24,250 nucleotides of DNA from a virus: positions 1 to 24,250 of the IMG/VR virus record IMGVR_UViG_3300037584_000610, one strand, 5' to 3'. The translations under genes and the position numbers were made by a program. Positions within the stretch are counted from its first letter, which is position 1, and the number at the start of each line of letters is the position of its first letter. A model generated the notes under the pieces. That model was not told the origin of the DNA. It ran no database searches and saw only the letters and a program-made list of their open reading frames with translations. This document shows, in pieces, positions 3-6,303 of this stretch.

Positions 3-218
3 ATAACCAAGTCCAATGGGGACGAGATTTTTGTTGTACCTGATCGCAACACCAAAGCTATTATTGAAGAACAACACCAGGACAAGCCGATATTGGTTTA
101 CACCATGCAAGAGTTATGTCATTTAATTAGTGGTGATGAGATGCAGTATGAACTGAAAAAAAAATTTCAAGCAACGGTGGAACAACCAAAATTAGATGAC
201 GAGGAAATACCGTTTTGA
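3..218 (+). CDS. Truncated protein with SSB-like acidic C-terminal tail (5' end missing)
   Basis: This reading frame is open from the left edge and ends at TGA 216-218, giving the last 71 residues of a protein whose start is outside the window. It is too short for the body to be assigned. The visible part is charged and mixed and ends in LDDEEIPF. That resembles the C-terminal tip of bacterial single-stranded DNA-binding proteins, DDDIPF in E. coli, which docks replication and repair partners. It sits at the head of the replication genes, and its stop overlaps the TTG start of the next gene. A role in replication or ssDNA handling is inferred from the tail and the neighbours; I do not recognise an OB fold in the visible segment. 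Confidence 0.6.
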   Translation: MTKSNGDEIFVVPDRNTKAIIEEQHQDKPILVYTMQELCHLISGDEMQYELKKKFQATVEQPKLDDEEIPF

Positions 219-517
219 AACAAAAGATTAATGATGAATTGAATTTAGAGATAGATTTATTTACCTGCAAGGAAGATGAATTTATTTATCTCTATCTATG
301 TTTGGGGTACGAAGTGAAAAAAGAATTACAAAATGCTTTTTACATGGGGTACACCAAGCGTGATATTGAAAACAAACGCCCATTTATGACACACAAGGAA
401 GAAAAATTGGGGTACATCACCCTTGAAATTCACCCTTTAGATGTGTATGAGAATAGGGATTACATTAAAACTATTTTGCAACAGAACAGGAGTGCTAATG
501 AAACTGCAAAAAGATGA
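215..517 (+). CDS. Hypothetical protein, 100 aa, TTG start
   Basis: I do not recognise this family. The 100-residue product is acidic near the N-terminus and rich in Tyr, Lys and Glu, with no signal peptide or membrane segment. The proposed start is TTG 215-217, which overlaps the previous stop (TTGA) and lies about 10 bases downstream of GAGG at 201-204. The first internal ATG would remove nearly half the protein, so the TTG start with translational coupling is preferred. The 3' end overlaps the next gene by 20 bases. It is probably a small accessory protein of the replication operon, but that rests on position alone. Confidence 0.6.
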   Translation: MKQKINDELNLEIDLFTCKEDEFIYLYLCLGYEVKKELQNAFYMGYTKRDIENKRPFMTHKEEKLGYITLEIHPLDVYENRDYIKTILQQNRSANETAKR

Positions 518-910: not shown

Positions 911-1589
911 TTTTAATATGGAAGGGAGCAGTATGTTCCCAAATATCGTTACCTTTAACGCTAATTCAGGGGTATGGAAGTTACGCCAAGACGGTGAAAC
1001 CAATGAAGTACAGATGCCAAAGCAAGTGGTGATGGACTTAGCAGTATTTACCAAAGGTTGGAATTTGATCTTGAAAGGGCAAGCACCACAAGCAAACATG
1101 GTAAAATACGACAAACCGTTTCCTGCTAAACCTGGTGAGGAATTTAAGAAAACATTTTGTATTCGTATGTATGCCAAAGACATCGGACTATGTGAGTTTG
1201 GTTCTAACAGTGCAATGGTTAGTCAAGCGGTACAAAAATTCTTTAATACTTATTTAGAAGGTAGACCAGATGCGGTTAAAGTACCAGTGGTTGCGATCAA
1301 AGAGAATGGTAAAGCAGGCGAATGGTATGTACCAAACTTTGAGATTGTCAAATATGTTGATAGACCAGAAGGATTGACTGAAATTAATATCACAGAAACC
1401 TCTAACCTAGCTATGCCTGGCAAACCAAACGAGAATCAGTTTGATGATATTGATGTACCACCACACATGGATGACAGGTTAGGCAAAAGAGATGGCAAAA
1501 AGAAAGCAATACCTTACACCAAAGCAGAAGAAGATGCTGAAATGGCAAAACTAGATGCTGCGTTAGGTACAGATGACGATGAGTTCTAG
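900..1589 (+). CDS. Probable phage single-stranded DNA-binding protein, 229 aa
   Basis: The product is a soluble protein of mixed beta character and no catalytic motifs, ending in a strongly acidic tail with a terminal aromatic residue (GTDDDEF). Such tails mark ssDNA-binding proteins of the T7 gp2.5 and bacterial SSB type, where they contact polymerase and helicase. The gene lies directly before a primase-helicase and an exonuclease, and overlaps the helicase start by 17 bases. I choose ATG 900, preceded by the purine-rich stretch AGAGGGGAAAGAAG. A TTG at 861 would add a Lys-rich leader with no clear ribosome binding site, and ATG 918 has none either. The assignment rests on the tail and context, not on a recognised OB-fold signature. 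Confidence 0.6.
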   Translation: MLNDFNMEGSSMFPNIVTFNANSGVWKLRQDGETNEVQMPKQVVMDLAVFTKGWNLILKGQAPQANMVKYDKPFPAKPGEEFKKTFCIRMYAKDIGLCEFGSNSAMVSQAVQKFFNTYLEGRPDAVKVPVVAIKENGKAGEWYVPNFEIVKYVDRPEGLTEINITETSNLAMPGKPNENQFDDIDVPPHMDDRLGKRDGKKKAIPYTKAEEDAEMAKLDAALGTDDDEF

Positions 1590-3405
1590 TGGGAATGATA
1601 TTAATTGGAAGGACTTCATCTTGCCAGTGGCAGAAGATGTATTTGGAGAGATTTCAAGCCAAGTCAACCACATGGTTAGGTTTGGTGCGAAGGGATCTAA
1701 AACTGTAGATCTAAATTCAGGTACATGGTATGACTTTGAAACAGGCTCAGGTGGTGGTTGTATTAGCCTATTGAAAGAATATTATCCTGACGAAAATCCG
1801 TTAGAGATATTAAAGAGTCGGTATGGGTTAGAGCAGAATTCCCCACAGAATACCCCAACTGCTCAACCCATGCTCATTGCCAGATACGACTACACCAATG
1901 AAGATGGCGAGATTGTCTATTCCAAACTTAAATATGAACCAAAAGATTTTAGATGGAAGTCAGATCAAGGGTACAGCATTAAAGGTATCAAGCGTATTCC
2001 GTATGCACTGAGTGAGGTAGTCAACGCAGGTAACAAGTATATCTTTCTATGTGAGGGTGAGAAAGATGCCGATGCCTTACGAGTACGCAACATGATTGGT
2101 ACGACTTTTGGTGGTGCATCTGATATACCTGATGAAGCGTTACATTACTTCAAAGGTAAGCGTGTATTTATTATTGGTGATTATGATACTGCTGGTATGA
2201 AACGAGTGCGTGATACCTATGAGAAACTCAAACCCATTGCCAGTGTGGTCAAGCATTGTTGGTTAGAAGGACAAGGTGAGGACTGCAATGATCTTAGTGA
2301 TTGGTTTGCTGCAGGTAACACTGTTGACAGCTTAAAACAGATTGTCAAAAATTGTCCAGAAAATTTTGAGGAGATGCAACGAGAACCAAATTACAGGTTC
2401 TTGACTTATCAAGACATTCTAACCATGACACCACCAAAGTTTTTGATTGATGGTTTTATTCAAGAGAACAGTCTGGCGATGATCTGGGGACACAGTGGTA
2501 GTTATAAGTCCTTCATTGCACTGGACTTTGCTTTGTGTGTTGCTACAGGTAAAGACTTTTTTGGACACAGTGTCAATCCAGGCACGGTGTTGTATGTGGC
2601 AGCAGAAGGTTCTAGTGGTTTTAAAAACAGAACCACTGCATGGGTAGAACACTATGACAAAAAGATTGATAACTTTTATTTGATACCAATGGGATTAGAC
2701 ATTAATGAAGAAAGAACCATAGATGATTTACTGGCAGATACCAGCATGTACCGACTACAACCAAAGCTCTTAGTGATTGATACACTAGCCAGATGTAGTG
2801 GCGGCAGCGAAGAAAACAGTGCAACCGACATGTCTAAGATTATTAATAACTTAGATAAATACCGTGAAGCCACAGGTGCAACATGCTTGATCGTGCATCA
2901 CAGTGGTAAATCTGGTAGTCAATATCGTGGATCTTCTGCGATCTACGCTGCAATGGACAGTTCTATTCAGATAGCCAAAGATGATTTGTATTGTACCCTG
3001 ACTTCAGATAAGCAAAAAGATTGTGAACCCTTTGAACAAATGACTTTTGATATGAAAAAAATTGAGTTCTTAGGTGGTCAATCATTGGTAGCTACATTAG
3101 ATGAACAACCTAATCGTCAAACCAAATCACAAGAACTGCTACAACTGATTAAAGATTTGCTGGTCAATGGTCAAACCAGCACGCACCCAGATGTTCCCAA
3201 TGGTTATTTGACGATTACTCGTAGCGACTTGAGGGAACAGGCATTGGATATGTTTGAAGGGGTAAGCACGACCAAGAACAAAAACTTTGGTAAGGTGTTA
3301 GAGAAATTGATTGCCGACAACAAGGTATTGTTTGCAGGATCAAGTAAAGGCAAGCAGTATTTATGGTTGCCGAAAGAAGAAGAAAACAATAACAACATTT
3401 TTTAA
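1573..3405 (+). CDS. Toprim/RecA-type primase-helicase, 610 aa
   Basis: This is a replicative primase-helicase-like protein. An N-terminal segment (about residues 10-85) has the pattern VRFGAKGSKTV...GTWYDFETGSGG. A Toprim domain follows (about 155-240), with the acidic motifs EGEKDA at 161-166 and GDYD at 202-205. The C-terminal RecA/RepA-like ATPase (about 295-475) has a Walker A GHSGSYKS at 306-313, a Walker B LLVID at 399-403, a paired His at 442-443 and a conserved YRGSSA at 451-456. This domain resembles AAA_25/RepA-type helicases that unwind DNA ahead of the polymerase. No Cys4 or CHC2 zinc ribbon is visible. The gene overlaps the ssDNA-binding gene; ATG 1573 or 1579 could serve as start. 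The exonuclease gene follows after 9 bases. Confidence 0.88.
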   Translation: MTMSSSGNDINWKDFILPVAEDVFGEISSQVNHMVRFGAKGSKTVDLNSGTWYDFETGSGGGCISLLKEYYPDENPLEILKSRYGLEQNSPQNTPTAQPMLIARYDYTNEDGEIVYSKLKYEPKDFRWKSDQGYSIKGIKRIPYALSEVVNAGNKYIFLCEGEKDADALRVRNMIGTTFGGASDIPDEALHYFKGKRVFIIGDYDTAGMKRVRDTYEKLKPIASVVKHCWLEGQGEDCNDLSDWFAAGNTVDSLKQIVKNCPENFEEMQREPNYRFLTYQDILTMTPPKFLIDGFIQENSLAMIWGHSGSYKSFIALDFALCVATGKDFFGHSVNPGTVLYVAAEGSSGFKNRTTAWVEHYDKKIDNFYLIPMGLDINEERTIDDLLADTSMYRLQPKLLVIDTLARCSGGSEENSATDMSKIINNLDKYREATGATCLIVHHSGKSGSQYRGSSAIYAAMDSSIQIAKDDLYCTLTSDKQKDCEPFEQMTFDMKKIEFLGGQSLVATLDEQPNRQTKSQELLQLIKDLLVNGQTSTHPDVPNGYLTITRSDLREQALDMFEGVSTTKNKNFGKVLEKLIADNKVLFAGSSKGKQYLWLPKEEENNNNIF

Positions 3406-3414
3406 GGAGAGGAT

Positions 3415-4428
3415 ATGAGTAAATTAGACAAAGGATTTGGTAAGCTATCACCTGACGATATGCTGAGTGCCAGTCAAGTACCTTATTTATTTGCTACGCC
3501 ACACACTGTACTACAACAGATAAGGGATGTACGAGCAGGAACTTATCAACGACCAGAATATAGCGATAAGATGGAAGAACGAATGAACATGGGTAACATA
3601 TTAGAAGGTACCATCAATGAGCTAACCAAAGAATTATTAGAGATAAGCATTAGTTATCCTGTGACTGAGGTCATGAGTAAAGAACTAGGAATTGATTCAA
3701 ACAATAAACCGTATGATATCTATGCTAGTTTAGATGCGATTGCTCACATACAAAAAGCAACTTTTATTACTCCAGTTGAAGGTAAGATTTACACGCCACA
3801 AGATGATTTAATGAAAAATGTGGTAGGTAAGATGGTAATAGAATACAAAAATATGCAAGGCAGACCTTACAGCTCAGTAGATGAATTAAGACTACCACCG
3901 TATGGTCGTGGCTATCTACAAGCAGAATGTCAAGCGTGGATTGCGGATGCAGATTACTTATGTGTGTCTATTCTCTTTAACGGTAACGATCACCGTTGTT
4001 ATGTGATGCCTGCTAGCGATTACATTCAACAAGAGATTGTGGCTAAAGCACATACCCTTTATGAGCATTTAGATAACGGTACACTGTATGATCCTGTTGA
4101 CATTGAAACGATGGCAGCGAAATACAACCGTGTGAATTACAGTGAGCCTGTACAGTTAGATGGTGAATTAGTTGGTGATATAGATAATTTAAACAGATTA
4201 AAAGAACAGGTTAAAACTACTGAGGAAGAAATAGATAGAATACAAATGAAACTAATTGAAGCATTAGCTGAAAATGAAATTGGACAAGTCAACACCAAGC
4301 AAGGCTTGATACAGCTAGAACGCAAGGTGCGTAACTACAAGGCACAACCTGAGAAGTTTGTACCAGCAAAGGAAGCTAGAACCATACGAGCTAAAACCGT
4401 TACGATTAAAAATATTTTGGAGTATTAA
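3415..4428 (+). CDS. YqaJ-like PD-(D/E)XK exonuclease (recombination nuclease), 337 aa
   Basis: The product has the ordered motifs of the lambda-exonuclease/YqaJ nuclease family. An LSASQ N-terminal motif (residues 17-21) is followed by GNILEG with Glu64, an Asp in ASLDAI (107), the catalytic VIEYKN with Glu143 and Lys145, and the GYLQAECQAWI helix with Gln169. These enzymes resect duplex DNA to leave ssDNA for annealing or packaging. The C-terminal third (about 245-290) looks coiled-coil, with many Glu and Lys. A strong ribosome binding site (AAGGAGAGG) precedes ATG 3415. It is the last gene of the + strand operon, and its 3' end overlaps the convergent 4406-5062 gene by 23 bases. With the upstream ssDNA-binding candidate it could form a recombination pair. 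Confidence 0.85.
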   Translation: MSKLDKGFGKLSPDDMLSASQVPYLFATPHTVLQQIRDVRAGTYQRPEYSDKMEERMNMGNILEGTINELTKELLEISISYPVTEVMSKELGIDSNNKPYDIYASLDAIAHIQKATFITPVEGKIYTPQDDLMKNVVGKMVIEYKNMQGRPYSSVDELRLPPYGRGYLQAECQAWIADADYLCVSILFNGNDHRCYVMPASDYIQQEIVAKAHTLYEHLDNGTLYDPVDIETMAAKYNRVNYSEPVQLDGELVGDIDNLNRLKEQVKTTEEEIDRIQMKLIEALAENEIGQVNTKQGLIQLERKVRNYKAQPEKFVPAKEARTIRAKTVTIKNILEY

Positions 4429-5062
4429 ATGAATAAATAAATTTGTGTTGTTCTTTCATGATTTGTGCTAACATCTTTTCGCTTTTATTGTAGACGATGG
4501 CAGCAGTGATGAGTTTTTTTATTCTATTATCTTTATCTATAAACCACTCATTGGATTGTTGTCTATATTTACGATACAGTTGGTGACACGCATTTTCATT
4601 GAACACATTAGATTCTAATCTAATGCCAATCAACCTTACGCCTTGGGTTGACACGGTAAGTTCTTTGATGCGTGCCATCCAATCAGTAGATCTACCGATC
4701 TTAATGTGTCCTGATTTGTTTTCTAAAAAATATATATACGATGGATGACGATGTATTTCAAAAACATCATCATACTGCCTGTCTTTGTCAACTACTTCTA
4801 TTTGTATTTCCAATGCTTTCTTCCTTGCCTGCTTAATGGTCATGCTAGGGTAGTACCCAAACACTTTTGATTTATGTACTCTTTCTTTTGCGTAGTCATA
4901 TGCCCAAGAATGTGTGCCTTTTTTAGAGAAACAACAGAGCAAACAGTTAACTTTAGTATCACGAATGTAGATAGATTTCTTACCTAGAGTATCTGGGTTC
5001 CAATTTTGCAGGTAATCATCGGTAATCGTTACCAGTCGCTTTGACTTGCTATCTCGTGGCAT
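4406..5062 (-). CDS. Integrase arm-DNA-binding domain fused to T5orf172/GIY-YIG-like domain, 218 aa
   Basis: Two modules are visible. Residues about 31-95 (IRDTKVNCLLCCFSKKG, SWAYDY, VFGYYPSMTIKQARKKA) match the pattern of the N-terminal arm-binding domain (DUF4102-like) of tyrosine integrases. Residues about 108-178 (YIYFLENKSGHIKIGRS, Arg131, Glu156, His160, NEWF at 171-174) match the T5orf172/MUG113 domain, a GIY-YIG-related nuclease fold. The tyrosine recombinase catalytic domain is absent, and the protein ends with a short helical tail. AGGAG lies 8 bases upstream of ATG 5062. It is the last gene of the late strand and converges on the exonuclease gene. A DNA-binding nuclease or homing-type enzyme, or a regulator derived from an integrase, is inferred; activity is unproven. 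Confidence 0.75.
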   Translation of the reverse strand: MPRDSKSKRLVTITDDYLQNWNPDTLGKKSIYIRDTKVNCLLCCFSKKGTHSWAYDYAKERVHKSKVFGYYPSMTIKQARKKALEIQIEVVDKDRQYDDVFEIHRHPSYIYFLENKSGHIKIGRSTDWMARIKELTVSTQGVRLIGIRLESNVFNENACHQLYRKYRQQSNEWFIDKDNRIKKLITAAIVYNKSEKMLAQIMKEQHKFIYSFNTPKYF

Positions 5063-5138
5063 TTAACAATTCTCCTTTGTCATACCATTCCCACCTACCT
5101 TAACGCCTGCATATGAGCCTGTTATAAGCTATTTTTTT

Positions 5139-5291
5139 TTATTTACCTACCTTTTTCTGGGCAATTTTGTGTGCTTCCTTAAATGTTTTACCACTCATCA
5201 TTTCTGCTACCATTAAATTCATATGTTTGGTTGAATGATGTTTTTTATGTTTCTTTAATGTGTCTTTTTGTCTTTTGGTTAGTTCTTTCAT
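5139..5291 (-). CDS. Small Lys/His-rich protein, 50 aa
   Basis: This 50-residue frame was found by direct translation. It begins MKELTKRQKDTLKKHKKHHS and ends AHKIAQKKVGK. The product is very basic, rich in Lys and His, probably two helices, with a central hydrophobic patch (HMNLMVAEMM). Its start overlaps the stop of the DUF6321 gene by one base (TAATG), the coupling used elsewhere in this operon. I recall similar short KELTKRQK proteins from marine phage contigs, where the function is unknown. A nucleic-acid-binding role is plausible from the charge. The recurrent junction architecture makes chance unlikely. Confidence 0.65.
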   Translation of the reverse strand: MKELTKRQKDTLKKHKKHHSTKHMNLMVAEMMSGKTFKEAHKIAQKKVGK

Positions 5292-5560
5292 TAGCTTTTC
5301 TTGTGTCGGTTAGCAAAATTACGAGCAGCTTCTACACTACCAAACCCCCAGGCTTTGAGTGCCAGAGCTTTGCGTGTGGGTGAACCATCAGGGTTTTTCA
5401 TCGGACCTTTCATACCAGCAAAGCGTGCTGCAAAAGATACTCGTCTTGGATTCGTACCTTTCTTAACTGGAGCTTTTAAGTTTGAACCTTCAGTTCGTTT
5501 AAAATGTCTACGACCTGCTGCTGTTAAACCACCCTTTGGATTCTTATGCTCTTTTCTCAT
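5291..5560 (-). CDS. DUF6321-like basic protein, 89 aa
   Basis: The product has the ordered signature KNPKGGLTAAGRRHF, NPRRVSFAARFAGM, KGPM, TRKALALKAWGFGS and VEAARNFA, which I associate with DUF6321, a family of small basic phage proteins of unknown function. There are no membrane segments. Starting at ATG 5560, it overlaps the stop of the HNH gene (ATGA), with AAGGA upstream, and its own stop overlaps the next start. The Arg/Lys-rich composition and the HNH neighbour suggest DNA contact or a packaging-related role, but this is inference. Confidence 0.75.
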   Translation of the reverse strand: MRKEHKNPKGGLTAAGRRHFKRTEGSNLKAPVKKGTNPRRVSFAARFAGMKGPMKNPDGSPTRKALALKAWGFGSVEAARNFANRHKKS

Positions 5561-5820
5561 TTCATTTTCCTTGCCATCATTCTAGCATAAGCTCGTTTAC
5601 TTGGATCACCTTTACGCTTACGAGGTTCAGCACGGTTCTTAGTTTTACTTTGATGTGTTAAGTTACTTGGACTGTTGTTCATTGGATTGTTATCTTTGTG
5701 AGCCACATCTTTGCCTGGAACACTGCCCATTATACGGTTAGCTTTGTTACGAGCAGTACGCCTTTTAACCTGTTTAGGTTTACTGTGATATAAAGCATAT
5801 TCTCTTTTGTAATCTCTCAT
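5557..5820 (-). CDS. Minimal HNH endonuclease-like protein, 87 aa
   Basis: The product carries the core of a small HNH-type fold: DVAHKDNNPMNNSPSNLTHQ (about residues 38-57), matching the usual vDHxdgnxxNNxxxNL pattern, then KTKNRA. Both flanks are Arg/Lys-rich, as in phage HNH proteins that nick or bind DNA. The domain is minimal, and the metal-binding residues outside this core cannot be placed with certainty. Almost no ribosome binding site precedes ATG 5820. Translation is probably coupled to the upstream 37-residue gene, whose stop overlaps this start. In many phages such genes lie near terminases and may help cut packaged DNA; no terminase is seen in this window. Confidence 0.7.
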   Translation of the reverse strand: MRDYKREYALYHSKPKQVKRRTARNKANRIMGSVPGKDVAHKDNNPMNNSPSNLTHQSKTKNRAEPRKRKGDPSKRAYARMMARKMK

Positions 5821-5931: not shown

Positions 5932-6303
5932 CTAACCCTCCGTTAGTTCAAAATGCGGACCATCTTTGAGTTTGGTCCAAGTACCACCCCATACATAACA
6001 TATGTTAGTTAAGGTAGCTGCTCTTGCAAACGCAAGATTGATTTCTTCATAATGTTTGAAATCCCAACTGACCCCACCATCTACCCAGGCATACACATCT
6101 ACGGCTAATCCTTTGAGATGTTTTGAGTTCAGTGTTAATGATTTACCTTCATCAAACAACAACTGCTGTCTTTCTTTGGTTCGTATACCTTCACTGATAC
6201 CAAAGTCTACGGTAGATAAACCAATCGCAGCTTTTACCAACTCTTGCATGTGTGGATGCACCCCTTCAAGTTTCTTCAATGATTTTTTAGATAGTTTGTA
6301 CAT
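5932..6303 (-). CDS. Endolysin, M15-family L-alanyl-D-glutamate (VanY-like) peptidase, 123 aa
   Basis: The product is a single-domain peptidoglycan peptidase of the M15 (VanY/T5 endolysin-like) type. The zinc motif SKHLKGLAVDVYAW (residues 60-73) gives ligands His62 and Asp69, and DGPHFEL near the C-terminus supplies His117. GISEGIRTKERQQLLF (35-50) is the usual preceding helix. It cleaves peptide stems of the cell wall. There is no signal peptide, so it should need a holin for release. That fits the holin-like gene whose stop overlaps this start by one base (TAATG). The length is normal for this compact family. Confidence 0.9.
   Translation of the reverse strand: MYKLSKKSLKKLEGVHPHMQELVKAAIGLSTVDFGISEGIRTKERQQLLFDEGKSLTLNSKHLKGLAVDVYAWVDGGVSWDFKHYEEINLAFARAATLTNICYVWGGTWTKLKDGPHFELTEG

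Follow-up and report, generated by a model that had tools for sequence, protein, structure and literature searches.

The locus examined here raises the question of what is done for a marine phage by a protein that joins an arm-type DNA-binding domain of integrases to a nuclease-like domain and has no recombinase core. The gene lies in a 24,250-bp virus contig, hereafter the window; since the contig has no end repeats, its phage is probably incomplete. A preliminary description drawn from the sequence had proposed three roles for the product, namely a homing enzyme, a nuclease that excludes rival integrative elements, or an integrase-derived regulator. On the evidence presented below, an active homing-type nuclease is the favoured candidate. 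Sequences compared with the window are referred to by L numbers.

Position of the gene and its leader

The 218-aa open reading frame that the preliminary description had placed at 4406–5062 on the minus strand was recovered there (Table 1). Its position at the very end of the late strand, converging on the exonuclease gene, was likewise borne out: it is the last gene on that strand, and its 3' end shares 23 bp (4406–4428) with the exonuclease gene. The helicase/primase gene is one ORF in the window (1573–3405) and two ORFs in L005 (9953–11799) and in L013 (5622–7462).

Table 1. Features of the two-domain gene and its surroundings, in window coordinates.
Feature	Position	Strand	Basis
Two-domain protein gene, 218 aa	4406..5062	-	ORF list and Pfam
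Arm-type DNA-binding domain, residues 12–94; Pfam match to residues 34–89	4781..5029	-	Pfam, fold match, conservation
HKSKVFG motif of the arm domain, residues 63–69			alignment
Short linker, residues 95–104, with conserved Y97 D98 and F101 E102	4751..4780	-	alignment, model
T5orf172/MUG113 (putative GIY-YIG class) domain, residues 105–200	4463..4750	-	Pfam, model, VIA-align
R131 codon, predicted catalytic arginine, aligned with R148 of ICP1 Odn	4670..4672	-	
E156 codon, predicted catalytic glutamate, aligned with E180 of ICP1 Odn	4595..4597	-	
Leader of the two-domain gene; GGAG ribosome-binding site at ~5069–5074	5063..5130	-	
Segment absent from the close relative L036, the mobile unit here, 721 bp	4410..5130	.	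homology break
Convergent gene for a RecE-like exonuclease, bordering the exchange slot on the right	3415..4428	+	PHROG 434
Flanking 50-aa ORF, unbroken in the empty-site relatives L035 and L036	5139..5291	-	relative comparison
DUF6321 gene, transferred along with the nuclease gene in L005/L006	5291..5560	-	block alignment

Upstream of the gene, ACAGGCTNATATGCAG forms a conserved leader block that is present in part of the group only. Within the leader, ACAGGCTCATATGCAG is kept in L003–L006, and in L007 and L008 its place is taken by another sequence, which includes a short inverted repeat (AGCCA..TGGCT). This leader element might be a regulatory hairpin or an operator. When a repeated operator was sought in the window, the leader motif was found once, and repeats in the region of the gene were at chance level only.

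The N-terminal half is an arm-type DNA-binding domain

Arm-DNA-bind_3 (PF13356) matched the N-terminal half with an E-value of 9.1e-7 (29.4 bits, against a cut-off of 27), and this half was assigned to phrog_3423 in PHROGs. An AF2 model of the whole protein, built with the family alignment, reached a pLDDT of 87.8 with a low pTM of 0.54, so that the placing of the two domains relative to each other is unreliable. Residues 12–94 of this model take up the fold of solved arm domains, a three-stranded sheet plus a helix, and match the arm domains of the P4-type HPI and HAI7 integrases at Z 10.2–10.9 and rmsd 1.6–2.5 Å. The best match was 3jtz (Z 10.9, 1.6 Å over 77 residues), followed by 3ju0 (Z 10.3) and 3rmp_C (Z 10.2), 3rmp being the HPI entry that deals with attP recognition. 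Identity to these domains is ~20%, with a common G.....YR....LG.YP....AR pattern. Sequence searches of the PDB returned no match with the single protein as query and 3ju0 alone, at E 0.19, with the family profile. In an alignment of 23 full-length members, the invariant residues of the arm half include W21, R34, D35, G49, H51, S52, H63, K64, S65, V67, G69 and R80. The proposed N-terminal arm domain thus stands on both its Pfam score and its fold, and as a member of the P4-type integrase arm family it is predicted to bind DNA sequence-specifically.

Unlike the P4-type integrases, the short protein has neither a core-binding nor a catalytic tyrosine-recombinase domain. As had been described, the catalytic domain is missing: PF00589 was absent from the Pfam matches of the protein and from ten carrier records. 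A close donor integrase for the arm domain was sought in phages, plasmids and a genome collection and was not found, the best integrase arm hits reaching ~40–45% over 50–60 residues (E ~1e-3 to 1e-2).

The C-terminal half matches T5orf172 and MUG113

Residues 109–185 matched T5orf172 with an E-value of 9.2e-7 (29.8 bits, cut-off 20), and MUG113 matched within the same residues at 26.4 bits (cut-off 22.3), both above the curated cut-offs, which upholds the earlier assignment to a T5orf172/GIY-YIG-like domain. PHROGs placed this half in phrog_4284 and in the homing-endonuclease family phrog_18411. PADLOC and NCBIfam scans of the protein gave no match. Arg131, Glu156 and the NEWF motif are present as first reported, and R131 and E156 are invariant across the 23 aligned members, down to 40% identity; the other invariant residues of this half include Y111, F112, I120–G123, S125, E172 and F174.

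Modelled alone (pLDDT 86.9), the nuclease half had mostly GIY-YIG proteins in its top VIA-align rows, at low Z of no more than 4.6; the best-ranked neighbours, the I-TevI catalytic domain (1ln0), Slx1 and UPF0213, with HIGLE also among the rows, scored Z 2.8–4.6 at very low identity for those three. A Foldseek search of the C-terminal domain against the PDB found nothing significant. Because the fold match is this low, the GIY-YIG assignment, a putative one, draws mainly on the Pfam profiles and on the aligned arginine and glutamate.

Vibrio phage ICP1 encodes a close precedent, the origin-directed nuclease Odn (Gp88; PMC8263062). Like the protein described here, Odn is a phage chimera of ~220 aa with an N-terminal DNA-binding domain and a C-terminal T5orf172 domain, and the catalytic R and E of the two proteins align. 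An HMM comparison with Odn covered just 29 aligned columns (probability 36%), so the R131/R148 and E156/E180 correspondence depends on the multiple alignment. The E180A mutant of Odn does not cleave DNA and leaves the phage unprotected (PMC8263062). Cleavage has been demonstrated for Odn and is predicted here. The DNA-binding domains also differ: Odn carries a RepA_N domain related to the RepA of PLE (PF22182 by Pfam), in contrast to the integrase arm-type domain of the present protein. Stand-alone T5orf172/MUG113 proteins such as L160 (109 aa) have a related nuclease domain (36% over 70 aa) without the arm domain.

The two domains are kept together in two kinds of marine phage

The two-domain layout, which the preliminary description had suggested looking for in phage databases, recurs in 30 further IMG/VR contigs as full or contig-cut copies, 40–92% identical. 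Searches of an isolate phage collection and a genome collection yielded no relative in any cultured phage or bacterial genome. Scanned member by member at E ≤ 0.1, the 23 aligned sequences matched the arm family in 23 of 23 cases and T5orf172 and MUG113 in 22 of 23, and the pairing is therefore not a chance event in one sequence. Twelve carrier records scanned for both domains gave one arm match each and, in 10/12, one T5orf172 match; wherever both domains were seen, they lay in one shared reading frame. Between close members dN/dS is mostly 0.1–0.3, indicating purifying selection and a protein that is maintained.

The family spans two unrelated kinds of marine phage, and across them the arm domain is as conserved as the nuclease domain. 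The first is the lineage of the window, whose nearest isolate is Methylophilales phage MEP301 (portal region 61% identical); here the gene sits between the DUF6321 gene, with or without the 50-aa ORF, and the convergent exonuclease gene. The second is a distant set of HTVC023P-type pelagiphages, in which the gene has the DNA polymerase/C5-methyltransferase region on one side and the small terminase gene on the other, lying just upstream of the latter; the polymerase of one member shares 70% identity with its counterpart in Pelagibacter phage HTVC023P. The HTVC023P-type contigs retrieved include 15 terminase loci with upstream sequence, several of them on near-identical contigs, and every one has the gene. 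Isolate HTVC023P has both flanking genes without the nuclease gene, and the nuclease gene was not found in isolate MEP301.

Elsewhere in the window, positions 215–517 (+) encode a 100-aa protein with no convincing PHROG or Pfam match. Most distant carriers have relatives of it at 30–40% identity, encoded on the opposite strand and close to the small terminase gene, and HTVC023P gp22 is weakly similar to it.

The gene is mobile and travels as a small cassette

An empty site, slot exchange and cassette transfer all support the suggestion that the gene is a mobile insertion. DNA of L036, whose exonuclease is 69% identical to that of the window, matches the window up to position 4409 and again from 5131, with 2 bp in place of the 721-bp segment. 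A C5 DNA methyltransferase occupies the slot of the nuclease gene in L035, a C5 methyltransferase-type gene adjoins the nuclease gene in L003, and in L004–L007 a PD-(D/E)XK-like nuclease ORF, with a Pfam score below the cut-off, overlaps its stop. The interval from the DUF6321/50-aa genes to the exonuclease gene (4406–5139) is a hot spot of exchange: among the window, L003, L004–L007, L035 and L036, its content is a C5 methyltransferase, the PD-(D/E)XK-like ORF, the nuclease gene or nothing.

L005 and L006 have one common 1287-bp block at 93.7% identity, containing DUF6321, the nuclease gene and the PD-(D/E)XK-like ORF, and otherwise align in short patches only; outside the block, the flanks of L005 align with L013. 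For this pair, dS is 0.19 in the nuclease gene against 2.4 in the exonuclease. The gene is also mosaic internally: the window and L002 differ at 41/303 positions in the arm half and at 8/324 in the nuclease half (p 1.5e-7), and the window and L003 show the same contrast. Judged by these differences, the N and C halves of the gene have separate histories. Presence and absence among relatives (absent from L035, L036, HTVC023P and MEP301) further indicate that the gene is dispensable.

Beyond the interval, a gene for a small HNH_3 protein (5557–5820, -) and an M15 peptidase gene (5932–6303, -) were not seen at the equivalent place in L035 and L036; variability in this region thus extends to more than one gene.

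Functional interpretation

The gene product is probably a DNA-cutting enzyme, either selfish or directed at competitors, and we lean modestly towards an arm-guided, free-standing homing-type endonuclease. Under that reading, the arm domain would bind a specific DNA sequence and the T5orf172 domain would cut near the bound site by means of R131 and E156. A co-infecting phage genome without the gene at the slot would be cut and then repaired from the carrier copy, and repair would spread the gene and its neighbours (DUF6321, sometimes the PD-(D/E)XK nuclease) into the slot that adjoins the exonuclease. This account is supported by the two above-threshold domains kept together in the family, by the arm fold, by the invariance of R131 and E156, by the alignment of E156 with the Odn residue E180, which is required for cutting (PMC8263062), by the low dN/dS between close members, and by the empty site in L036, the methyltransferase in the slot of L035, the L005/L006 block, the mosaic halves and the absence of the gene from isolate HTVC023P.

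A close parallel is offered by the known T5orf172 homing endonucleases from ICP1-like phages and others. According to the available sections of PMC10448857, they too combine T5orf172 with a DNA-binding domain, lie near terminase or replication genes and at genetic-exchange boundaries, and have their domains and cassettes shuffled. Terminase neighbourhoods are given there as their commonest site (35%), which adds support from the terminase-adjacent gene of the HTVC023P-type phages. CapR/DUF723/DUF4397 zinc fingers are reported on 200/229 of these enzymes, and the arm domain present here is not among the DNA-binding domains met in those sections. Counting against homing, the gene's presence at every terminase locus of the HTVC023P-type contigs, near-duplicates included, looks more resident than patchy, and the match to the GIY-YIG fold is weak by absolute standards. 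Ordinary homologous recombination by way of the conserved DUF6321 gene could also account for the cassette exchange.

The main rival, which we hold to be unlikely, is an interference nuclease in the manner of Odn, whose arm domain would read arm-type attachment sites while the nuclease cuts a competing element during infection. The target would be a satellite, prophage or island with a P4-type integrase. Slightly more doubtful still is the fuller scenario in which the DNA-reading integrase arm of such a satellite or island was converted by a phage into the guide of a nuclease, one that cleaves rival integrative elements of marine bacteria at their attachment region. Odn provides the precedent, a like chimera of a competitor-derived DNA-binding domain and T5orf172 by which the phage is protected against PLE (PMC8263062). 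The arm domain has the fold of island integrases of the P4 type, the gene is under purifying selection, and the ten carrier records show no integrase of their own for it to serve. However, the DNA-binding domain of Odn is akin to that of its competitor, whereas only distant integrase arm domains were found here in phages, plasmids and the genome collection; the rival integrase with a copied arm that exclusion would call for was not found, nor was a bacterial genome with a relative. Conservation of the arm domain to the same degree as the nuclease domain across two phage types fits an old, fixed target rather than an arms race.

About as likely as that rival, and so also improbable, is a resident phage function in which the protein cuts or marks the phage's own or intermediate DNA, for example to help packaging, as its terminase neighbourhood would suggest, or recombination, as the exonuclease neighbourhood would, its spread being ordinary mosaicism. 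Its constant presence at the terminase loci, the coupling to the PD-(D/E)XK-like ORF in L004–L007 and the low dN/dS between close members agree with such a role, but its absence from the close relatives L035 and L036 and from isolates HTVC023P and MEP301 marks it as dispensable, and the two phage types carry it at different places.

It is very improbable that the protein is an integrase-derived DNA-binding regulator whose nuclease domain is inactive. GIY-YIG homing enzymes such as I-TevI can repress transcription too (PMC10448857), and part of the group has a conserved leader element; however, that element is single in the window, and a dead nuclease would need neither R131 nor E156, whose invariance disfavours a pure regulator. 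A split or decayed integrase was rejected because PF00589 is missing from ten carrier records and the family shows no internal decay, and recent capture from a known integrase was rejected for want of a close arm domain in the collections searched.

Implications

The T5orf172 nuclease family, its swapping of DNA-binding domains and its mobility are already known. An integrase arm as the guide domain of a T5orf172 nuclease has, as far as we found in a partial coverage of the literature, not been reported before. Odn showed that exchanging the guide domain can give a phage an anti-satellite weapon. In the family described here the domain swapped in is an integrase arm; the family is conserved in two types of phage that infect abundant marine bacteria, and it comes with two clean natural experiments, the empty site and the transferred cassette. 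Since P4-type integrase arm domains have solved structures with DNA, the target of the arm could be worked out, which makes the choice between homing and anti-satellite activity directly testable. If the latter were true, the protein would be a weapon of the Odn type whose targets are integration sites and not replication origins.
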